From: a virus
DNA: 33,721 bases
Direction: 5' to 3' (one strand)
Virus record (IMG/VR): IMGVR_UViG_3300044949_002466
Span: 1 to 33,721 of that record
Every line of letters starts with the position of its first letter. Position 1 is the first letter of the stretch. This document shows positions 5,370-29,539 of this stretch, piece after piece. Below the pieces are notes generated by a model. That model was not told the origin of the DNA, ran no database searches, and saw only the letters and a list, made by a program, of their open reading frames with translations. The translations under genes were made by a program, and so were the position numbers.

Positions 5370-6062
5370 TCAAGGACCGTAGAGGAAGGTGTCCCAGCCA
5401 CCCTCTCCGCTCATCTCGTACTCCTCCGTCACCGTGTAGGACCCGGTGGATCCGCGGGCGGAGACGTTGATCAGCAGGAACGTGGCGCCGCGGGGCACCC
5501 CGGGAACGCTGACGCCCGGGCTGGCGATTTTTCCCACCCGCCCGGCGGAGGGCGGGCTGGAGGCCTGATAGGTTTTGCGCACCACCAGGCTGGGCACGTA
5601 GTAGCTGGTCACCCCGTCCATCAGGTATCCGTAGAGGCTGCGGGCGCGGGTCACGTCCGATCCGCTTTCGCGGATTTCTTCCTCAATATCGGAAAACTTT
5701 TTGCCGCTGGTGGCCAGCGCGTCGCGGATGATTTTTTTGCCCTCCGCGGTGACGAAGCTGCCCCGGCCCTCGCCACCGTAGACGGGGTGGGCCTCGATCG
5801 GCACGGTGCGGACCGCTGAGACCACCTCCACGGCGACGGCGCCGGGCTGGATGGGATCGCCAATGGAGCCGGCGTCCTGTTCAATCTGGTAGACGGTGCG
5901 GATCTGACCGGCCACGTCCGTGGTGACGGCCTTGGACTTGACGGTGCCGGTCAGGCCGGTCGGCTGCGGCGCCTCCTCCGTGCCGATAAAGGTGACGGTG
6001 ACAATCTGCTTGCCGTCCTTGTCGATCGTCGTCGTCCGGCCGGGCTGTTCGTAGTAGGGCAT
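5370..6062 (-). CDS. Predicted distal tail protein, 230 aa
   Basis: MPYYEQPGRTTTIDKDGKQI leads into a beta-rich protein (IVTVTFIGTEE, VAVEVVSAVRTVPIEAHPVY), then a helical KKFSDIEEEIRESGSD segment near residues 120-140 and a C-terminal GWDTFLYGP. No family recognised. It follows the tape-measure gene by three bases and precedes the 996-residue fibre-like gene, the place where distal tail or hub proteins usually lie. Confidence 0.75.
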   Translation of the reverse strand: MPYYEQPGRTTTIDKDGKQIVTVTFIGTEEAPQPTGLTGTVKSKAVTTDVAGQIRTVYQIEQDAGSIGDPIQPGAVAVEVVSAVRTVPIEAHPVYGGEGRGSFVTAEGKKIIRDALATSGKKFSDIEEEIRESGSDVTRARSLYGYLMDGVTSYYVPSLVVRKTYQASSPPSAGRVGKIASPGVSVPGVPRGATFLLINVSARGSTGSYTVTEEYEMSGEGGWDTFLYGP

Positions 6063-6065
6063 AAA

Positions 6066-7295
6066 TTACTGCACTCCCTCCGGTGTCACGCCGGCAGCCA
6101 TGCTCTTGCCGGTGTTTTTCTCGATGTTTTTAAGGACGGCAAGCTGATCCCGCTGAATGGCATCTGCGCCGCCAATCTGGGCAAACCGGCCGCCCCCGCC
6201 CACCTGCTGCAGTGAATCAGCCAATACTTGCAGACTCCCACCGGTGGCCAATGCCTTGGCAATGCCACCGGGAATCATCCCGTCTGTAATCTGTTCTTGC
6301 ACCCTTCTGCGGAGAGAGTCGATTTGCCCGGCCAGGGTTATGTTTTCCAAAACAGCTTGGGCGCGCTCCGGACCGTCAGCCATGCGGCTAATTTTTTCAC
6401 GCTGAGCTGCCTCCTCGCGGGAAAGCTCCACCAAGCGATCGGCATCGTTAAGGGAATTAAGAAAATTTTGCCGGGCGGCGCGGTCGGCGCGTTCGTAGAT
6501 CTGCGCTGCTTTTTCCGCGGCATCGGTTCGCGCCACCGCCTCTTGTTGTCTTGGGACAGCGGTGGGCGGCTCTGATGTAAGTATCCCGGCAAGGTTTTCA
6601 AAACCCAGGAACTTGGCCATGGCCGCGGCGGCCGGCACAATGGCCGCAGCAATGCGTCCAAAAACCAAAGTCATGGCGTTGCCAATGGTTTTCATGGCAT
6701 CCGACGCGGCGCTTAGCGCCTTGATCTGGCTGTCCGTGTAAGTGCCCATGGCCGCGCCAAGTTTCATAATCTCATCGGAACCCATGCGCAGGGTGGGAAG
6801 AAGATCCGTTGCCGATCGGCCCATCAATTCCTGGGCAATCCGAAACTCGTCGGCTCCAAGCGCGCCCTGCTGTGCCGCCTGGGCAAAAGCCATCAAAATA
6901 TCCTGCGGGGAGGCGGCTCGCAGTTGTTCCAAAGACAGGCCAATTCTTTCAAAGTTTTCCGCCATGGCTTGGTCGGTTGCGGCGCGGCTGGCATTGATCG
7001 CCGCCTTGTTCATGGCGGCGGCCACCGATTCCAGGCTGGCCCCGGAAAGCTCTGCGGCATTACCCAGCAGCTGGAGCTGACTGGCGGAGATTCCAAATTT
7101 ATTTGCGAGATCTTGTAGTTGATCCCCCTTCTGCACGGCTTGATTCAGTCCACTGAGAAGTTTGTCGAAAACAAAAGCTCCGGCAAAGATTCCCCCAATT
7201 CCCCTGGCAAAAGACGCGGCGGAGCTTTGCAACCTGGCGATGCCGGTCTCAAAGCCGGAGGCATCGAGGCCTGTTTTTACATTCAGCTCGCTCAT
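6066..7295 (-). CDS. Short tail tape-measure-like protein, 409 aa
   Basis: Starts MSELNVKTGLDASGFETGIA, an opening common in tape-measure proteins (target residues then a helical region, from memory). Long alanine-rich helices fill residues 10-210. A hydrophobic stretch near 205-235 (AIVPAAAAMAKFLGF) and a charged coiled region near 250-330 follow. It determines tail length and is later ejected. At about 1.5 angstrom per residue it would give a tail of roughly 60 nm, short for a siphovirus. The start overlaps the upstream stop as ATGA at 7292-7295. Myoviral tape measures look similar, but no sheath gene was seen. Confidence 0.8.
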   Translation of the reverse strand: MSELNVKTGLDASGFETGIARLQSSAASFARGIGGIFAGAFVFDKLLSGLNQAVQKGDQLQDLANKFGISASQLQLLGNAAELSGASLESVAAAMNKAAINASRAATDQAMAENFERIGLSLEQLRAASPQDILMAFAQAAQQGALGADEFRIAQELMGRSATDLLPTLRMGSDEIMKLGAAMGTYTDSQIKALSAASDAMKTIGNAMTLVFGRIAAAIVPAAAAMAKFLGFENLAGILTSEPPTAVPRQQEAVARTDAAEKAAQIYERADRAARQNFLNSLNDADRLVELSREEAAQREKISRMADGPERAQAVLENITLAGQIDSLRRRVQEQITDGMIPGGIAKALATGGSLQVLADSLQQVGGGGRFAQIGGADAIQRDQLAVLKNIEKNTGKSMAAGVTPEGVQ

Positions 7296-10058: not shown

Positions 10059-11033
10059 TCAACCCTTTATGTCAAAACCCATCTGGCCGGCGATCCATGC
10101 ATAGGTTTTGGCCAGCCCGTCCTTAAGCGGGATAGACGGCTCCCAGCCCAGCACCTCACGGATCAGCGTGTTGTCGCTGCTCCGCCCCCTCACCCCTTTG
10201 GGCGCGTGAATCTTGTAGCGGCGCAACAACCGGACGCCCGCAATCTCCTCGGCCACGTCCACCAGCTGATTGATGGAAACCATTTCCGCGCTGCCCAGAT
10301 TGAGCGGTTCCCGAACGTTGCCTTCCATGATGGCCCGGGTGCCAAAAATGCAGTCGTCGATATACTGGAAGCTGCGGGTCTGGTGACCATCGCCCCAAAC
10401 CTCAATCTCCATGGTGTTGTCCCGCTGGGCCTCAATTACCTTCCGGCAGATGGCCGCCGGCGCTTTCTCGCGCCCTCCGTCGTAGGTGCCGTGCGGTCCG
10501 TAGACGTTGTGATAGCGGGCCACCCGCGTCTCAATGCCGTAGTCCTCAAAGAAGTGCCGGCACATGCGCTCGCTAAAAAGTTTCTCCCAGCCATAGCCGT
10601 CCTCCGGCATGGCGGGATAGGCATCGGACTCCTTTAGCCCAGGATTCTCAGGGGTGGTCTGCTTGTCGGCCGCATAGACGCAAGCCGAGGAGGCGTAGAA
10701 ATAGCGTTGGCAGCCGGCGTCCCTAGTCGCAACGAGCAGGTTGGTGTTGATGAGGACGGACAGCATGCACTCCGCCTTGTGCATTTCGATGAAGCCCATC
10801 CCGCCCATGTCGGCCGCCAGGTTATAAATCCAATCCATGCCGGCCGCGGCTTGCCGGCAGGCGGCCGCATCCCGCAGATCCAGGGCGAGGTTTTCCACAT
10901 CGTCAAACCGCTGGTACCACTCGCCCTCTGGTTTGATGTCCACGGCACGGATCCGGCCGGCACCCTTCTCCCGCAGGCTGGCCACCAGGTGGCCGCCGAT
11001 AAATCCGCCCGCGCCGGTGACCAGCACGTTCAC
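10059..11033 (-). CDS. GDP-mannose 3,5-epimerase-like SDR enzyme
   Basis: 324 residues, full length for an extended SDR. NAD site GAGGFIG at 7-13, then AADMGGMGFI (73-82), a segment typical of GDP-mannose 3,5-epimerase. The catalytic-type residues are present: Cys118 in SSACVY, Tyr147-x3-Lys151, and Lys190 in GGREKAPAA. Downstream are WGDGHQTRSF (213-222) and KGVRGRSSDN (279-288). In plants this family converts GDP-D-mannose to GDP-L-galactose and GDP-L-gulose (family knowledge). The GTG start overlaps the methyltransferase stop (GTGA). It would supply a nucleotide sugar to the neighbouring glycosyltransferases. Another GDP-sugar epimerase activity is possible, but the motif match is close. 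Confidence 0.9.
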   Translation of the reverse strand: MNVLVTGAGGFIGGHLVASLREKGAGRIRAVDIKPEGEWYQRFDDVENLALDLRDAAACRQAAAGMDWIYNLAADMGGMGFIEMHKAECMLSVLINTNLLVATRDAGCQRYFYASSACVYAADKQTTPENPGLKESDAYPAMPEDGYGWEKLFSERMCRHFFEDYGIETRVARYHNVYGPHGTYDGGREKAPAAICRKVIEAQRDNTMEIEVWGDGHQTRSFQYIDDCIFGTRAIMEGNVREPLNLGSAEMVSINQLVDVAEEIAGVRLLRRYKIHAPKGVRGRSSDNTLIREVLGWEPSIPLKDGLAKTYAWIAGQMGFDIKG

Positions 11034-11557
11034 AGAATGGCCTTGTGGACGTAGAAATCGTCCTGTTCGCCAAACATTCCGGGCACGCCGGGCCTGGCCA
11101 GCACGTAGCCTAGGCTGGCCATCAGCTCCCGGCTGGGTTCCCTGCTTTCCTTGTAGCGGTAGTAGTCCGTCTCAAACGTGACGGTGTAGGCCCAGATCTT
11201 TTGCCCCAGAATATGCTGCAGGCATTTCCACGTGAGCTCCGGCGGCTCCAGATCCAGCGAAAGATAGTCCACCGGCTGCGGAATATGCTGGGCGGCCAAC
11301 AGCGCCGGATAGTCCAGCGTGCAGGCGTCGCCTAACACAAAGACGGATCCGGGCCGCTCCCGCGCCCAGCCGTGGGAAAAAGATCCGTCCACGTCGATGG
11401 CGATCCCGCGCCAGCCCAGCTGTTTTTCCAGCGCCCAGGTGTTGGACAAATTGCGGGGCTCATGGCAGCCGACGTCCAAAAACGTGCCGTCGCGCTTGTT
11501 CTTGAAAACCTCGGCCACCCACCTGTCCTGGCCGATCTGGCCGTACCACTCGCTCAT
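11030..11557 (-). CDS. FkbM-like SAM-dependent methyltransferase
   Basis: I chose ATG 11555-11557, which overlaps the preceding stop by one base, giving 175 residues. FLDVGCHEP (about 26-34) is the SAM-binding motif I, followed by GIAIDVDGS and VDYLSLDLEPPE, all typical of FkbM-type O-methyltransferases. These often methylate sugars or glycan ends, so here it could cap a glycan made by the cassette (inference). It lies between a glycosyltransferase and the epimerase with start/stop overlaps on both sides, implying one translational unit. Confidence 0.8.
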   Translation of the reverse strand: MSEWYGQIGQDRWVAEVFKNKRDGTFLDVGCHEPRNLSNTWALEKQLGWRGIAIDVDGSFSHGWARERPGSVFVLGDACTLDYPALLAAQHIPQPVDYLSLDLEPPELTWKCLQHILGQKIWAYTVTFETDYYRYKESREPSRELMASLGYVLARPGVPGMFGEQDDFYVHKAIL

Positions 11558-12207
11558 CAGTGCCAGGCCTCCCCGTACTTGGGCAGATTGGCGTGAAGGG
11601 CACGCAGGCGCATGTCCACCGTGACGGAGCGGCCGATTTTGCGGGCCTCCTGGCAGATGTTCCAGTGGTCCGTGTTGGTGGGGTGATCGGTGTGACGCGC
11701 GCCGGTTAGGTAGACGGGCACGGGCACGCTGTAGAGGCATCCCACGCCGGCCACTTCCACCACTTCCCTGCCGGAAGCGTCCTCGTGGTGCGGGGCAAAG
11801 ACGTTCCAATGTTTGTCATCCAGCCCGACAAATCCGGCCGTGTCGTAGAACTGCTCCTCCCGGTCCTCAATAAAAACCGGGCAGGAGCTGACGCCGTGCG
11901 GGTTGGCGGCCAACAGCCGCGTGGGCAGATCGGCGGGATACTCGACTAGATCGGCATCGATCCACAGGACATGGGTGAACGCGGACAGCTTAAAGCAGTC
12001 CAAAAGCGTGTTGCGCACGCGGGTCACCTTACTCCACGGCGTGCTGTCGCCAGCCTCCTTGGCCAGCACGCGGGAATCAAAAACGATCACCAGATCCATG
12101 GCCGGGTTGGCCGCCGGCATCCGGCCGGCCAGCTCCAAGGCGCGCCGCTTCAGGTCGGCGTGCATGTCCGCCTTGATCGGGATCAGTGCGAGGACGGACG
12201 GCTTCAT
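11557..12207 (-). CDS. GT-A-type glycosyltransferase, 216 aa
   Basis: MKPSVLALIPIKADMHADLK starts a short nucleotide-sugar binding fold. HVLWIDADLVEYPADLP (about residues 80-96) carries a DxD metal/nucleotide-sugar motif. The C-terminal half has VEVAGVGCLYSVPV and HTDHPTNTDHWNICQEA. The pattern suggests an Anp1-like or generic GT-A enzyme. The donor and acceptor are unknown. The start forms ATGA with the stop of the 710-residue glycosyltransferase and the stop joins the methyltransferase, consistent with a coupled glycan pathway. Confidence 0.75.
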   Translation of the reverse strand: MKPSVLALIPIKADMHADLKRRALELAGRMPAANPAMDLVIVFDSRVLAKEAGDSTPWSKVTRVRNTLLDCFKLSAFTHVLWIDADLVEYPADLPTRLLAANPHGVSSCPVFIEDREEQFYDTAGFVGLDDKHWNVFAPHHEDASGREVVEVAGVGCLYSVPVPVYLTGARHTDHPTNTDHWNICQEARKIGRSVTVDMRLRALHANLPKYGEAWH

Positions 12208-14336
12208 CCTTTGAGCAGGGCGTAGGCGGCAAGGTTGCCGCCGGTCTGCTTGTTGTTTTGCAAGGCGTCCTCGCCCAGCCCTTCTGGGCGGATTCGGATG
12301 CCGTTGGAGCGGTTGAAATCAGGCGTGTTGCACACCAGCGTGGCAGTGCCATTTTCCCGCAGGCGTTTGCTCATCATGAAATCGTCAGCCAAAAACTCGG
12401 CCCGCTGCTTGTCGTCCAGCTTGGCAAATTCCTTGGCGGTGTAGGACGGCCAGAACGTTAGGTCTGGCAGGTCTTTCTTGCGGCAGCAGACGGCGCCAAA
12501 GCCTTCCAAAATCTCCGCATGGCCGAGATGATCGGGCGCGATCGCGTAGCCCTTGGGGCCGGTCATAAAGAAGCCGCACAGGCCGATAGCGGATTTTTCC
12601 GGGCACGAATCCACCAGCGTTTCCACCATCTTGGGGCTGTAGAGAATGTCGTCATCACACCAGATGATGAAGTCGTCCGGCTCGGCGTGGTGGGCTCCGC
12701 CCACAAACTTGGTCGCGGGCCCGTGGTCGCGCACGGTGTGGACGGACACCCTGCCCTCCTCCACCAGTTTTTTGAGAAAGGTCGGCAGCTGGGTCATGTC
12801 CGGCATGCGCTCGCCGGTGCGGGCCAGCTTTTCCGGCAGAGACAGGCAGATCTCGTCCGCTGGCCGGCTTTGGTTCAGCAGGCTCTGCAACGTGGGCAGG
12901 ATGGTGTGGATCCGCTTGGGCGTGGTGGTCAGGCAGACGCGCACCTTGCCGTTGCGGTCGATGGGGCTGGGCATTTTTTCCGCACCGGGCGGCACGGTGC
13001 CGTTTTCCAGCAGCTCCGCATCCCAGCGCAGGCCCGGCAAAACCGCGTCCTTGGCCTTGACGGTCAAAATCACATCGCCCAGCGCCGCCTGCAGCGCCTC
13101 CTGGGCGGTCTGCACGATGTGCAGGCGGTCGGCAATCTTGTGGCCTTTTTGGGTTAACAGCAGGTGCTGGATACCGTTTGGCGCGTCCGCGCAGTCCGTG
13201 TAGAGCGCCATGGATTTGAGGCAGTCGTCCGGCTGGCCGGCGTGGATGACGGTGATCCGGCCCCAGGCGCCGCGAAATCCGTCCCGCACCAGCTGGTTCG
13301 CCTGCTCGTGCTGACCCAGCGCCCGGAGGCACTGCGCCATCAGCTGGCGTGGCAGATGCTTGTACCAGCGGTTTTCCTGGTTCCAGTCCTGCGTGGACGG
13401 CATAGCGTCCACCTGTTTCAAAATATGATAAGCGGTGGTGAAATCGCCGTGATCCATCCGGTCGGTCGCCAGCAGGCCGTGCGCCTCCCGGCGCATCGGG
13501 GAAAGCGCGATCGCCTTGCCAATGTGGTCGAGGCGCTTGGCTCGCTCGGCCAGCATCATGAAGGCCTGGCAGTGCAGCTGGTATTTTTCGGTGGCGCCCA
13601 CGTCCGCGTGTTCCAGCGCCAGCAGGCATGGGCCGATCGCCTCCTGGTACTGGTTTTTAAGGAAATGTTCCTGCGCCAGGTAGTACCACTCCATGCCGAT
13701 GCCGTTCAGCCGGCTGGCGATGATCCGCTTATTACGCTCGGCGCTGGAGGTCTTGGGTCCGGTCGGGGCGTGCAGGATTTTTAAGTGCTCGGCCACGGCG
13801 AGCTTGGCGCCATCCCGCGGTTTGACCCGCTCGTGGATCTGCCGTTCCCAATAGGCGGAAAGTTTCCCGTCCGGCATCCTGCGAAAGATCCGCTCGCGCT
13901 TGTTGTTGCGCATGCCGCTGTTTTGGACGTCGTAGAGCGTGACCAGCAGGTCCCAGTTGTCCTTCCCGGCCGCGCAGGCCTCAACCTGGGCGCGATGCAG
14001 GGCCGCCTGGCCTTCCTCAAAGATGTCGTCGCAATCCGCCCAGATAACGAATTTTCCGGTGGCCAGGTCGAAGGCCTTATTGCGGGCGGCCGCAAAGTTA
14101 TCGATGTGCGGCCAATCTGCATTTTCCGGGGCGTTGTGATACTCCGCAAAGATGCTGGCATCGCCAGCCGCCTCCTGCAGTGCTTGGCGCAGATCGTCGC
14201 TGGTGTTGTTTCCCACGGCCGCCACCACGACCACTTGGTCCCATAGGCCGCGGGCGGATTCGATGAGGCGACGCAAAATCGCCCCCTCGCCGTTACCGGC
14301 GATGAGGGCGATTGAAACCAAAGGTGTGGGGGTCAT
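12204..14336 (-). CDS. Two-domain glycosyltransferase with helical linker, 710 aa
   Basis: Residues 1-130 look like a GT2-type domain with DNFAAARNKAF and the acidic DCDD motif at 101-104. The middle (about 200-400) is helical with repeated Ala/Leu and paired-helix patterns (EKYQLHCQAFMMLAERAKRL), TPR-like. The C-terminal half (about 465-640) begins VRVCLTTTPKRIHTILPTLQ and carries CDDD at 560-563, then LADDFMMSKRL, a second GT-A-like catalytic domain. A bifunctional enzyme adding two sugars is plausible. It starts just after the stem-loop downstream of the coat gene and is coupled to the next glycosyltransferase. Confidence 0.85.
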   Translation of the reverse strand: MTPTPLVSIALIAGNGEGAILRRLIESARGLWDQVVVVAAVGNNTSDDLRQALQEAAGDASIFAEYHNAPENADWPHIDNFAAARNKAFDLATGKFVIWADCDDIFEEGQAALHRAQVEACAAGKDNWDLLVTLYDVQNSGMRNNKRERIFRRMPDGKLSAYWERQIHERVKPRDGAKLAVAEHLKILHAPTGPKTSSAERNKRIIASRLNGIGMEWYYLAQEHFLKNQYQEAIGPCLLALEHADVGATEKYQLHCQAFMMLAERAKRLDHIGKAIALSPMRREAHGLLATDRMDHGDFTTAYHILKQVDAMPSTQDWNQENRWYKHLPRQLMAQCLRALGQHEQANQLVRDGFRGAWGRITVIHAGQPDDCLKSMALYTDCADAPNGIQHLLLTQKGHKIADRLHIVQTAQEALQAALGDVILTVKAKDAVLPGLRWDAELLENGTVPPGAEKMPSPIDRNGKVRVCLTTTPKRIHTILPTLQSLLNQSRPADEICLSLPEKLARTGERMPDMTQLPTFLKKLVEEGRVSVHTVRDHGPATKFVGGAHHAEPDDFIIWCDDDILYSPKMVETLVDSCPEKSAIGLCGFFMTGPKGYAIAPDHLGHAEILEGFGAVCCRKKDLPDLTFWPSYTAKEFAKLDDKQRAEFLADDFMMSKRLRENGTATLVCNTPDFNRSNGIRIRPEGLGEDALQNNKQTGGNLAAYALLKG

Positions 14337-26207: not shown

Positions 26208-26375
26208 TTTGCTACGTTTTTGCTACGCTCACCACTTAAGTCGTTGGTGGATAAAGATCGGACGGGGTGGGATTTGAACCCACGGCGACCAGCTACAGTG
26301 TATTTGTTTAAGATTAACTCTGACGGCTTCACTTAATTTCTTGGTGTTTTTGGCCAATTTGCTACGTTTGCTACG
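26208..26375. other. Candidate attP: tRNA 3' end flanked by arm-type repeats
   Basis: TTTGCTACG occurs at 26208-26216, 26219-26227, 26358-26366 and 26367-26375 in the same orientation. These paired repeats flank the tRNA-like core at 26259-26283, as expected for integrase arm sites around a core. An inverted copy lies at 26543-26551 inside int. The right pair also lies just upstream of the int ATG, so it may overlap the int promoter and couple integration to int control. Confidence 0.75.
26259..26283 (-). other. tRNA 3'-end fragment, likely integration core
   Basis: On the minus strand, GTGGG-TTCAAAT-CCCAC forms a perfect T arm with a seven-base loop, followed by CCCGTCC-G, an acceptor 3' strand plus discriminator base. 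There is no D arm, no anticodon arm and no 5' acceptor strand, so it is not a working tRNA. Tyrosine-recombinase phages often insert at tRNA 3' ends and restore them. The tRNA identity cannot be read from this part. Confidence 0.8.
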
Positions 26376-26383
26376 GACTCAAA

Positions 26384-27532
26384 ATGGCCACGATTTACAA
26401 AAGAAAAGACAGCGAATGGTACTGGCTGCGGTACAAAACCCCCGAGGGAAAATGGGCCTGCAAAGCGACGCGCTACCGGACGGACAACACGCTGCACCGG
26501 GCCAAGGCCCTGGAGGAGGCCAGCCGGCTTTCTGTTACGGAACGTAGCAAAAAAAGCACGGACACCTCTTGGGTCGATGAACTCTTGGTTCAACACCAGG
26601 TCGCCGACAACACCCGCATCTACTACCGAAACAGCTGGCGCAACCTCTCCCGATTCATGGCGGAGCGCCGGATCCTGCTGGAGGACTTCACCCCGGCCCG
26701 AGCCCTGGACTACATCGCTTGGCGCACCCGCCTGCCCCGCACCAACGGATCCTTCATCGGCCGTAACCAAGCCCTGCAGGACATCAAGCTGCTTAAATGG
26801 ATCCACCGCCAAGGCCGGCTGCTGGGCCACCTCAGCACCATGGCCATGATCGACTTCCGGTCCCGCAAAAGCCCGGTGCAACGCAAGCCGGTCTTCACAG
26901 AGGAGGAGATCGCCCGCGTCCGCCACGCCCTCTCCATCCCGCATGTGCCGGACTGGATGCGCACCAGCTTCGAAATCGCCCTGCACACGGGTTGCCGGCT
27001 GAAAGAAACCCGCATCCCGCTTTCCTGCATCGACCTTAAAACCGGCACGGTCACCTTTCCCGCCCCTAAGGGAGGCACAGGCCGCAGCTACACGATTCCG
27101 ATCCCCGACGGCCTTGTGCCCATGTTCCGCAAGATGAAAGCCACGCCACGCAGCCACACCTTGGAATGGCCGGGCTGCGGAACCAAGGTTTCCAGCTACT
27201 GGCGCCGTTTTTTTAATCTGCTGGGAATGAGAAAGCACAGTTTCCATGGCCTTAGAGCGACGAGGGTAACAAACCTGCGTAAAGCAGGGATTGTTCAAGC
27301 TGTTGCCATGCGACTCGTGAACCATTCTTCGACGCTGGTGCACGACCTGTATCAGCGCCATTCAGTGGAAGATCTGCGGCCCTACGTGAACGCGGGCCTT
27401 CCTGCATCCACGCCTCAAACGCCGCCGGAAACACCAGCCCCCGCACCATGGGAAAGCCCGGCTGGAAAGACAGCTGACGGGCCCGATTGTACGCGATTCC
27501 GTACGCAGCCGACAGCTCGCGCAGGTTCATAA
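26384..27532 (+). CDS. Tyrosine recombinase integrase
   Basis: 382 residues. All catalytic positions are visible: Arg205 (HTGCRLKET), Lys229 (APKGG), His288-x2-Arg291 (HGLRAT), His314 (VNHSS) and Tyr323 (HDLYQRH). An N-terminal AP2-like start (MATIYKRKDSEWYWLRYKTP) and a SAM-like core-binding domain (about 60-155) precede it. It would integrate and, with a partner factor, excise the phage at attP. The tail beyond 340 is Pro/Thr-rich and disordered. It starts eight bases after the right arm repeat with no Shine-Dalgarno. The 3' end overlaps the minus-strand HTH gene. Confidence 0.93.
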   Translation: MATIYKRKDSEWYWLRYKTPEGKWACKATRYRTDNTLHRAKALEEASRLSVTERSKKSTDTSWVDELLVQHQVADNTRIYYRNSWRNLSRFMAERRILLEDFTPARALDYIAWRTRLPRTNGSFIGRNQALQDIKLLKWIHRQGRLLGHLSTMAMIDFRSRKSPVQRKPVFTEEEIARVRHALSIPHVPDWMRTSFEIALHTGCRLKETRIPLSCIDLKTGTVTFPAPKGGTGRSYTIPIPDGLVPMFRKMKATPRSHTLEWPGCGTKVSSYWRRFFNLLGMRKHSFHGLRATRVTNLRKAGIVQAVAMRLVNHSSTLVHDLYQRHSVEDLRPYVNAGLPASTPQTPPETPAPAPWESPAGKTADGPDCTRFRTQPTARAGS

Positions 27533-27587
27533 GCTCGTTCAACCCGCGCTTGGCGCGAGCGGCCTCCACGTACCTCTCGGGAGTCAT
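27252..27587 (-). CDS. Excisionase-like HTH protein overlapping int in antisense
   Basis: 111 residues. MNLRELSAAYGIAYNRARQL, FPMVRGLVFPAAFEAWMQEG (about residues 20-64) form a MerR/excisionase-type helix-turn-helix. The remainder is low-complexity and basic. ATGA overlap with the small RHH gene. The HTH part lies opposite the disordered tail of integrase, and the disordered tail lies opposite the integrase end containing catalytic Tyr323. It could be the Xis or a regulator of excision. Not certain that the whole frame is translated. Confidence 0.65.
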   Translation of the reverse strand: MTPERYVEAARAKRGLNELMNLRELSAAYGIAYNRARQLSFQPGFPMVRGLVFPAAFEAWMQEGPRSRRAADLPLNGADTGRAPASKNGSRVAWQQLEQSLLYAGLLPSSL

Positions 27588-27745
27588 GGCGCGTCGTCAG
27601 CCTCCTGAATCAGCTTCGCAACCAGCTGCGACAAGCTCAGGTTTTTTTTCTCCGCCAGCTCCCGGCCCAGCTTTTTAATGTGGACGGGCAGATACAAATT
27701 CGTCACCTCCGCGCCGCTGTTCTTCGAGGAGGATTTGACCGGCAT
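27584..27745 (-). CDS. Leftward ribbon-helix-helix regulator, 53 aa
   Basis: ATG at 27743-27745. After a Ser-rich start, VTNLYLPVHIKKLGRELAEK, NLSLSQLVAKLIQEADD match a ribbon-helix-helix (CopG/Arc-type) with strand then two helices. It is a close paralogue of the plus-strand RHH (27857-28066). Lacks a Shine-Dalgarno and would be leaderless if the promoter at 27752-27780 is used. Coupled to the HTH gene by ATGA. I infer the Cro-like partner of a two-RHH switch. Confidence 0.8.
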   Translation of the reverse strand: MPVKSSSKNSGAEVTNLYLPVHIKKLGRELAEKKNLSLSQLVAKLIQEADDAP

Positions 27746-27746
27746 G

Positions 27747-27774
27747 TGCGTGTTCTATGCGCATGAAACACGCA
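27747..27774. promoter_or_regulatory. Near-perfect 28-bp operator palindrome
   Basis: TGCGTGTT (27747-27754), ATGCGCAT (27757-27764) and AACACGCA (27767-27774) form a dyad with only the two-base spacers mismatched. Hexamers at 27747 (TGCGTG), 27758 (TGCGCA) and 27769 (CACGCA) are 11 bp apart, one helical turn, as is usual for RHH dimers binding cooperatively. Confidence 0.75.
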
Positions 27775-27780
27775 TGGCAA
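27752..27780 (-). promoter_or_regulatory. Leftward switch promoter, leaderless
   Basis: -35 TTGCCA (27780-27775) and -10 TAGAAC (27757-27752), with a 17-bp spacer TGCGTGTTTCATGCGCA. Six bases separate the -10 from the ATG, so transcription would start at or near the A of the start codon. Two operator hexamers fill the spacer ends. Confidence 0.6.
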
Positions 27781-27821
27781 GAAAAAAATTCTTTGGGCTG
27801 AACTTTTTTTCCGGCGCGAAT

Positions 27822-27850
27822 TTGACCTGCGCACCTTTTGCGCATAAAAG
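27822..27850 (+). promoter_or_regulatory. Rightward switch promoter with operator in spacer
   Basis: -35 TTGACC (27822-27827), 17-bp spacer TGCGCACCTTTTGCGCA, and -10 TAAAAG (27845-27850). Six bases separate the -10 from ATG 27857, so the mRNA would be leaderless. TGCGCA at 27828 and 27839 are 11 bp apart. An AAAGG at 27847-27851 could serve as a weak ribosome-binding site if the start lies further upstream. Confidence 0.6.
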
Positions 27851-27856
27851 GCTTTG

Positions 27857-28066
27857 ATGGCCAAGCAAGCCACCAACCTGACCCTGCCCGCCGAGGTCAA
27901 AAAGAAAGGCATGGCCCTAGCCAAAAAGGCCGGCATGTCCCTCTCCACCTATGTCGCCCAGCTGCTGATTAAGGAGGCGGCCCGAGAACAGGGTTTTATT
28001 ACCGAGAGCCCTGCATTGTATGCGGCAGGACGGTCACAGGCAAAAACTAGGACAAAGAGGACATGA
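27857..28066 (+). CDS. Rightward ribbon-helix-helix regulator, 69 aa
   Basis: ATG 27857 fits the promoter better than an in-frame TTG three bases earlier. Residues about 5-45 (ATNLTLPAEVKKKGMALAKK, MSLSTYVAQLLIKEAA) form the same RHH fold as the leftward paralogue, with about 17 of 38 aligned positions identical by eye. The C-terminal 25 residues are basic and probably flexible. It starts the only plus-strand operon next to int. I infer the prophage-maintaining repressor. Coupled to the exported protein by ATGA at 28063-28066. Confidence 0.8.
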   Translation: MAKQATNLTLPAEVKKKGMALAKKAGMSLSTYVAQLLIKEAAREQGFITESPALYAAGRSQAKTRTKRT

Positions 28067-28506
28067 AATTTGCGACTGTTTTTACCTTATCTGCCCTAGT
28101 GACCTGTCTTTCCTACGGCCAGACCGTGGCCGATCCCAAGCAAAACGTAGGCGGGGGCGGGTCCTACGCCCGCATCGGCGGCGCAGCCAAAAAAAACCCT
28201 TACAACCTGCTACCTAATATGCTGGCCCTGACCAACGCCCGGGTCGTCAGCATTGCCAAAGACACCGCCGGCCAGCCTTACCTGCAGCTGGAAGAAGCGG
28301 GCCAGACCTACCAGATCCGCAATTTTCCGGAGGGCAAATATCAGGCCGGCCATGCCCTTGGGCCTGTTATTTTGGTCAAAGGAATCAGCCAGACGCGCAC
28401 GGACGGGCGGCGCTCCTACCTGTGGTTTGGAACCAACGCCGTGACCCAAGCGCAGGTTACCCGCCACGAATCCTCAGCCCTTGCCCTTCTTTACCCCTTG
28501 AACTAG
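28063..28506 (+). CDS. Exported protein, lysogenic-conversion candidate, 147 aa
   Basis: MKFATVFTLSALVTCLSYGQ is a signal peptide with a likely cut after the Ala/Gly region near residue 20. The mature part is Gly-rich then beta-like (NARVVSIAKDTAGQPYLQLE, GPVILVKGISQTRTDGRRSYLW), and has no recognised family. It is translated from the same start/stop overlap as the RHH repressor, so it would be made in lysogens. It might alter the envelope, for example by superinfection exclusion, but no motif shows this. Confidence 0.75.
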   Translation: MKFATVFTLSALVTCLSYGQTVADPKQNVGGGGSYARIGGAAKKNPYNLLPNMLALTNARVVSIAKDTAGQPYLQLEEAGQTYQIRNFPEGKYQAGHALGPVILVKGISQTRTDGRRSYLWFGTNAVTQAQVTRHESSALALLYPLN

Positions 28507-28761
28507 CCGGTAGTACGGCCGCGCCCGGATTCCCCGCCCCCACTGCACCCGGAAATCTTTCCGCTCCACCAGCCCCGCCTGCGCCAGCTGCCGGCACTTC
28601 TGCATCCCCACCTCCCGGCACAGGCCCAGCTTTTCCGCAATTTCCTCCGGCGAGTGCCACCCCTTGGGCACACTCTCCGCGCCCACCAGGTTCACCTTTT
28701 CAAAGGCCGCCCGCCAGGCGGCTGCCTCCAGATCCTCCTTACGAAACGCTGACGATTTCAT
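28474..28761 (-). CDS. Small winged-HTH protein at the end of the late block
   Basis: I chose ATG 28761, giving 95 residues. GWHSPEEIAEKLGLCREVGM, KCRQLAQAGLVERKDFRVQW (about 33-73) form a winged helix-turn-helix with wing residues Gly/Arg after it. It overlaps the metallophosphoesterase 3' end by 23 bases and the exported-protein gene tail by 33 bases, convergently. Its position last in the late transcript suggests late control, but no role is proven. Confidence 0.7.
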   Translation of the reverse strand: MKSSAFRKEDLEAAAWRAAFEKVNLVGAESVPKGWHSPEEIAEKLGLCREVGMQKCRQLAQAGLVERKDFRVQWGRGIRARPYYRLVQGVKKGKG

Positions 28762-29539
28762 CCTGCTCCGGCGTCCACACCAGCTCATGCACCTCCGGCA
28801 GCTCCCCGTTGCGACGCCGGCGCCAATCCAGCACCAACGCCGAGGGCCGCGGGATCGCATCCGGCACCACCTTGCGGCCGTACCGGGTCAAAAACTGCCA
28901 CCCGCCCGTCACCCCGATCATCCCCTGCCCGTCCGAAAACCAGCCTCCCGTGTGCCGGTGCCCCCGCAGATACACCCGGGCCGGCTCCTGCCCGCAGCGC
29001 ATGCTGTTGAGCCGCGCGTTCCCCATGGTGATGGAAAGGCTGGTGGCCTCCAGGTAGGCCCGGCTGGTCACCCCGATGTGATGCGTGGCATCCACCAGGC
29101 AGCCTGCCATCCGAAACAGCCACTTGCCCCGCGCCCCGTTGCCCTCCGCCCCCAGCTTTTTGGCGATATAGTGCTCGATCAACCCTGTATGGGCCTCCGT
29201 GCCCAGCGTGACAAAAGTCTTATCCGCCCGCTTGGCCAGCCCGCCCACCGCCTCGATCGCCATGTTGGCGTGGTCCTCGATCGATTGCGTCAGCGATTCG
29301 ATCGACTTGTGGTGGATGCCCTCCGTCAGATCCCCGTTAAGGCACAGGACGTACTTGTCCTTGCCCCGGATCGCCGCAAAGCGGGCCTGCAGATCCGTCC
29401 AACACGCCCAGAGCCACTCCTGGTGCACGTTCCCGCCAAAGGAGATTTTGTTGCCCGTGCGAGTCGTCTGATCGGGTGGCATTAAGCCCACCTCAGATCC
29501 GCAGTGGATGTCGCTCACCACCAATAATAAGCGGGACAT
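28739..29539 (-). CDS. Calcineurin-like metallophosphoesterase, 266 aa
   Basis: Motifs in order: VVSDIHCGS (about 7-15), LNGDLTEG (about 67-74), VTLGTEAHTG (about 108-117, where most family members have GNHE), VDATHHIG, and YLRGHRHTGG (about 201-210), the metal-binding set. It should hydrolyse phosphate esters, perhaps of nucleic acid or nucleotides; the substrate is unknown. The Asn of GNH(D/E) is replaced by Thr. It starts with ATG 29537-29539 downstream of the small 113-residue gene. Confidence 0.85.
   Translation of the reverse strand: MSRLLLVVSDIHCGSEVGLMPPDQTTRTGNKISFGGNVHQEWLWACWTDLQARFAAIRGKDKYVLCLNGDLTEGIHHKSIESLTQSIEDHANMAIEAVGGLAKRADKTFVTLGTEAHTGLIEHYIAKKLGAEGNGARGKWLFRMAGCLVDATHHIGVTSRAYLEATSLSITMGNARLNSMRCGQEPARVYLRGHRHTGGWFSDGQGMIGVTGGWQFLTRYGRKVVPDAIPRPSALVLDWRRRRNGELPEVHELVWTPEQDEIVSVS

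Follow-up and report, generated by a model that had tools for sequence, protein, structure and literature searches.

In lambdoid phages, the CI/Cro region comprises divergent promoters and two regulators, and regulators and operators are exchanged together as a heteroimmunity cassette; such mosaic replacement of a regulator plus its operator classically marks an immunity region. The immI region of P22 (mnt / arc-ant) has two divergent genes for ribbon-helix-helix (RHH) regulators and an operator placed inside a promoter spacer: the 17-bp spacer of Pant is filled by Oarc, with half-sites one turn apart (TTGACA-TGATAGAAGCACTCTAC-TATATT). It also has the antirepressor ant and the sar RNA, and is a secondary immunity region beside c2. 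Type II RHH antitoxins (CcdA, RelB, and VapB) combine an RHH domain with an autoregulated operon and an overlapping next gene. In cluster A mycobacteriophages, where a single repressor acts on many dispersed sites, immune specificity is defined by joint divergence of the repressor and its DNA sites (PMC6550527).

The stretch of DNA analyzed here (the window) is a 33.7-kb virus record. It contains genes for TerL, portal, capsid, endolysin, and integrase, a set that marks it as a temperate tailed phage. The host is predicted from TerL and integrase relatives, which point to Verrucomicrobiota: the TerL is nearest to that of Akkermansia phage Moulinsart (31% identity), and of 20 relatives of the integrase in sequenced genomes, 18 carry a Verrucomicrobiota label, the other two coming from a Schlesneria and an Armatimonadetes bin. 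Positions 10059-14336, which lie between the genes for the major capsid and head-tail proteins, are occupied by genes on that same strand that by eye resemble a sugar-nucleotide epimerase, an FkbM-type methyltransferase, and glycosyltransferases.

Two divergent genes, rhhL (27584-27745, minus strand, 53 aa) and rhhR (27857-28066, plus strand, 69 aa), are separated by an intergenic gap of 111 bp. The original prediction that they encode paralogous RHH proteins holds, and BLASTP aligns them with 20 of 38 residues identical instead of the 17 first counted. Members of the RHH (MetJ/Arc) superfamily have one beta-strand followed by two helices within ~45 residues and, as dimers, place an antiparallel sheet into the operator's major groove. 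In agreement with this fold, the AlphaFold monomer model has helices at 12-25 and 29-45, with the strand not assigned in the monomer. The best Foldseek matches are to P22 Arc (probability 1.00 but E = 0.08), the best PDB sequence for the R/L profile is also Arc (E = 0.007), and the Pfam RHH_5 match (E = 1.4e-4) lies under Pfam's curated cut-off. Both proteins are predicted to have an RHH fold, with P22 Arc as the nearest solved relative. By alignment, V14-N16-Y18 of RhhL and A5-N7-T9 of RhhR occupy the strand positions equivalent to Arc Q9/N11/R13.

Each gene of the pair is joined to a second gene. The stop of rhhL is overlapped by 4 bp (ATGA) by a putative excisionase gene (xis, 27252-27587, minus strand, 111 aa) with an HTH-like N-terminal 65 aa, and rhhL overlaps or closely precedes an xis-like ORF in the contigs examined. 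The window's xis-like protein has no Pfam or PHROG match and no significant match in a fold search, and its counterpart in a Verrucomicrobiota prophage, L138, weakly matches the excisionase family phrog_66; the xis assignment is a weak one. The tyrosine integrase gene int (26384-27532, plus strand) is convergent with rhhL-xis. The xis-like ORF and the 3' end of int overlap in antisense over ~280 bp (27252-27532), also in relatives, and the codon of the catalytic tyrosine (27350-27352) lies inside this overlap. Just left of int is a putative attP (26208-26376), in which TTGCTACG-type direct repeats flank a tRNA 3'-end core (~26260-26286, minus strand); this region could be aligned in 15 phages. 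On the other side, a variable cargo gene (28063-28506, plus strand) is ATGA-coupled to rhhR and encodes a protein with a signal-peptide-like N-terminus. In relatives, its place is taken by unrelated small secreted or membrane proteins, mostly ATGA-joined to rhhR, for which we found no family match and no toxin match in Pfam or PADLOC. The cargo differs among phages including L009-L013, L080, L088, and L091. The position is possibly a slot for lysogenic conversion or exclusion genes.

The predicted promoter geometry, in which a 17-bp spacer between -35 and -10 contains hexamers at a distance of 11 bp and six bases separate the -10 from each ATG, is confirmed on both sides. The left promoter, of rhhL, reads TTGCCA-17-TAGAAC-6-ATG (-35 at 27775-27780, -10 at 27752-27757, minus strand) with the spacer TGCGTGTTTCATGCGCA, and the right promoter, of rhhR, reads TTGACC-17-TAAAAG-6-ATG (-35 at 27822-27827, -10 at 27845-27850, plus strand) with the spacer TGCGCACCTTTTGCGCA. 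Each spacer holds two YRCGYR hexamers. The candidate operator hexamers on the left are A (TGCGTG, 27747-27752), which overlaps the final base of the -10, B (TGCGCA, 27758-27763), and C (CACGCA, 27769-27774); A and B are invariant in type I, the group to which the window belongs (see below). The 28-bp dyad described earlier at 27747-27774 is there, although imperfect (12 of 14 pairs), and is really a run of three hexamers with an 11-bp period. On the right, the window has two hexamers, D (TGCGCA, 27828-27833) and E (TGCGCA, 27839-27844; TACGCA in most relatives), and several relatives have a third: position F (27850-27855) is degenerate in the window (GGCTTT) and hexamer-like in four of eight tabulated type I loci (TGCGCA, TGCGTA, TACGCA, and TGCGCT). 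The hexamer-N5-hexamer motif occurs three times in the window, always within the intergenic gap, against expectations of 0.27 for the whole window and 0.006 for the gap.

In a blind best-promoter scan, the gap between -10 and start codon was 6-7 nt in all 16 tabulated type I promoters, and 12% of shuffled sequences gave a gap of 5-8 nt. The ATG is the sole in-frame start in several type I relatives, and the weak AAGG upstream of the window's rhhR is absent from most relatives. The conserved gap therefore predicts that the regulator mRNAs may be leaderless or nearly so, as first suggested; this fits type I, but the spacing is less regular in the other two types, where most right promoters of type II have a gap of 7 nt and the other promoters no regular one. 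The further suggestion that the two promoters arose by duplication finds no support: function accounts for the retention of the hexamers, symmetry is lacking in types II and III, and hexamer C is inverted in three relatives (TGCGTG for CACGCA at the same position).

A further 17 IMG/VR contigs have the divergent pair beside int and the putative xis, and every one of the 14 contigs recovered via integrase similarity carries it. The pairs fall into three specificity types. Type I includes eight further contigs (3300046003_007653, 3300046000_009963, 3300042879_005474, 3300042453_004790, 3300023179_005649, 3300051212_001202, 3300042866_001908, and 3300023174_000710), type II five (3300022752_000254, 3300022752_000220, 3300022752_003509, 3300042338_000941, and 3300046009_011724), and type III four (3300042516_005084, 3300035187_003564, 3300042477_000469, and 3300042504_002975). 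Promoter geometry and hexamers are kept in all eight further type I contigs. Beyond these contigs, a tblastn search of RhhL or RhhR against 50,697 phage records, a DNA-level search for relatives, and a pattern search for RHH relatives in sequenced genomes returned no match. Profile searches detected no RHH pair at distant integrase loci in Verrucomicrobiota genomes, and one divergent RHH pair was found among 388 sampled genomes. A scan of the collection with the operator pattern returned the eight known type I contigs and seven others without a flanking RHH pair, which are chance matches or unrelated promoters. Two unrelated viral contigs (L046, 5460-5484; L044, 3631-3655) have TACGCATA-containing repeats in promoter-like sequence, adjoining genes for small basic proteins.

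Pairwise identity along int-xis-rhhL-rhhR-cargo revealed that the rhhL-operator-rhhR block is replaced between otherwise near-identical phages. Between L088 (type III) and L090 (type I), int and xis are 91-98% identical and the downstream region 88-97%, whereas the cassette is 26-61% identical; between L091 (type II) and L087 (type I), identity drops from 95-100% to 16-71%. Conversely, L080 and L091, both of type II, share 79-88% identity in the cassette, whereas int is only 49-72% identical. The TerL proteins of two type III phages and one type II phage are 89-90% identical to that of the window. Our best reading of these comparisons is that the cassette behaves like an exchangeable immunity cassette, which is not proof of immunity; the chances that it sets immunity or the lysis-lysogeny state appear about even.

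We consider it reasonably probable that the locus is a local switch in which two RHH proteins repress each other, rhhL-xis against rhhR-cargo, in the manner of an exchangeable immunity cassette. RhhL and xis would be transcribed leftward and RhhR and the variable cargo rightward from the back-to-back promoters. We infer that dimers of RhhL and RhhR bind the YRCGYR hexamers, one helical turn apart, in both spacers, that each protein shuts off its own promoter and the other, and that their affinities differ for the slightly different left and right sites. In the RhhR state, xis would be off and the cargo on, corresponding to lysogeny; in the RhhL state, the right promoter would be off and xis allowed, corresponding to excision and lytic entry.

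The operator pair was found in six type I contigs (~186 kb) in the RHH gap and nowhere else, and a repressor acting only at this gap would not silence separate early promoters, which argues against the cassette being a lambda-style global repressor. The Cro/CI-like decision foreseen in the original prediction is plausible in that the cassette is swapped and adjoins int and the putative xis, but it would have to work without remote operators. The confinement of the operators would also suit a narrower role, in which the pair regulates xis and cargo locally and another, undetected regulator sets lysogeny and immunity. The two operons hold just rhhL-xis and rhhR-cargo, and a weak winged-helix candidate at 28474-28860 could be such a regulator. 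Control of excision only is a possibility that we take seriously but consider rather doubtful: Pfam and PHROGs revealed no CI/LexA-type repressor among the scanned ORFs, and en-bloc exchange of proteins and operators is what superinfection immunity would select for, whereas excision alone does not require such exchange. Moreover, early genes start within ~340 bp beyond the putative attP and so would be within reach of the left promoter once the genome is circular.

From the left promoter, the direction of transcription runs through xis, along int in antisense, and across the putative attP to the early genes, which makes an excision-gated early operon possible. If the mutually repressing switch worked in this way, it would be the primary immunity and lysis-lysogeny switch of an entire phage group, built of two RHH paralogues only, with one site cluster and with early genes gated by excision across attP, which seems unlikely. 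Such a switch would need no remote operators because of the position of the early genes just beyond attP. Integration would separate them from the left promoter, and only excision, which this promoter would drive through xis, would reunite it with the early operon in the circular form of the genome.

Whether the two proteins share their sites is addressed by co-variation, which had been put forward as a check. At the Arc-equivalent strand positions, type I proteins have V-N-Y (L) and A-N-T (R), type II proteins P/Q-N-Y (L) and R-N-Y (R), and type III proteins K-T-T in both. The corresponding operators are TGCGYR/YRCGCA on both sides in type I and TACGTA/TACGTG in type III; type II has TGCGCC/GACGCA in the left promoter and AGCGCA in the right one. 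Types I and II combine TN[LV].L strands with operators that have a GC core, and in type III both paralogues read EKTTLTI and the operators are TACGTA-N5-TACGTR. The type motifs are exclusive: none of the scanned type II and III loci has the type I motif, and none of the scanned type I and II loci has that of type III. The right operator of type III contig 42516 is degenerate, and the left -10s of types II and III are weak.

In trees of the 17 L and 17 R proteins (40 columns; few independent events), all L proteins are split from all R proteins when the eight strand columns are left out (88/96 support), and this split is one old duplication. With the strand columns included, L and R proteins of type III group together (67/93, weak support) because both read EKTTLTI. 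Therefore, the DNA-reading strands of the two paralogues changed together with the operators, as would be expected of two proteins that share their sites. This co-variation of both strands with the operators across the three types indirectly supports the claim that each protein could silence both promoters, and it is very probable that RhhL and RhhR both act on operators shared by the two promoters.

A more distant case is L138, in which a divergent RHH pair lies with RecT and integrase genes nearby and the RHH-L gene overlaps the excisionase-like gene. The palindrome TTGCGCAA occurs exactly twice in 14 kb, once per promoter region; these putative operators are one 8-mer per promoter, not hexamer pairs, and the promoters score poorly. 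L138 therefore supports the architecture more than the geometry. Further RHH-like small proteins, identified by eye, surround its divergent pair (5673-5882 and 6665-7147, within 5673-7147), and a metalloprotease-like gene (phrog_87) is also near the pair, which suggests a larger RHH-based control region.

Alternatively, each protein could merely be autoregulated and the resemblance of the operators incidental. Of the three presumed base-contact positions, two are occupied by different residues in RhhL and RhhR of type I, and left and right hexamers are slightly different, TGCGTG/CACGCA being specific to the left side and TACGCA/TGCGTA to the right. Against such separate sites, both type III proteins read K-T-T and both type III promoters carry TACGTA, the reading strands move together in both paralogues, and L138 has the same 8-mer in both promoters; we judge this alternative to be improbable. 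A type II toxin-antitoxin system, with RhhR as a CcdA/RelB-like antitoxin and the overlapping downstream gene as toxin, is highly improbable and was rejected, despite the weak score of RhhR to CcdA (E = 4e-4, below the cut-off) and the ATGA overlap typical of such operons, as no conserved coupled toxin gene was found, Pfam and PADLOC gave no toxin match for any downstream gene, the genes downstream encode various unrelated secreted or membrane proteins while the RhhR C-terminus stays conserved, and such loci do not include a second divergent RHH gene with xis.

If true, the mutually repressing RHH pair would be a compact two-protein phage switch whose regulators are sister copies of one small fold, and its at least three natural specificities would allow reading residues and DNA sites to be compared side by side. 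It would make testable how two paralogues can shift DNA specificity in step yet remain a switch and how one operator cluster can suffice for a phage to control lysogeny, and it would provide a first regulatory handle on temperate Verrucomicrobiota phages.

Our literature search, which had most subscription journals outside its scope, found no description of an RHH-only two-paralogue phage switch, nor of a switch of this type in temperate phages of Verrucomicrobiota. Among the known systems, the type II RHH antitoxins differ in that the window family lacks a toxin, has a divergent paralogue, and does not conserve the next gene. As in cluster A mycobacteriophages, proteins and sites diverge together, but in the window family there are two RHH paralogues and one site cluster. 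Like the lambdoid CI/Cro region, the window family has divergent promoters and two regulators that would share operators, and regulators and operators are exchanged together en bloc between related phages. In contrast to CI and Cro, two HTH regulators of opposite effect, both regulators are RHH proteins and paralogous, and no second operator region was found in six type I contigs (~186 kb). The claim that no switch of this geometry had been described overlooked P22 immI, with its divergent mnt and arc genes and Oarc in the Pant spacer. The P22 promoters overlap and each P22 repressor has its own distinct operator, whereas the window has back-to-back promoters and one operator class on both sides. 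Its neighbours are xis/int and a variable cargo gene, with no ant-like antirepressor match among the downstream genes and no CI-type repressor found. P22 immI is hence the precedent, and the window cassette, which unlike immI belongs to a family of three exchangeable types, is a variant of that kind, not a new one.
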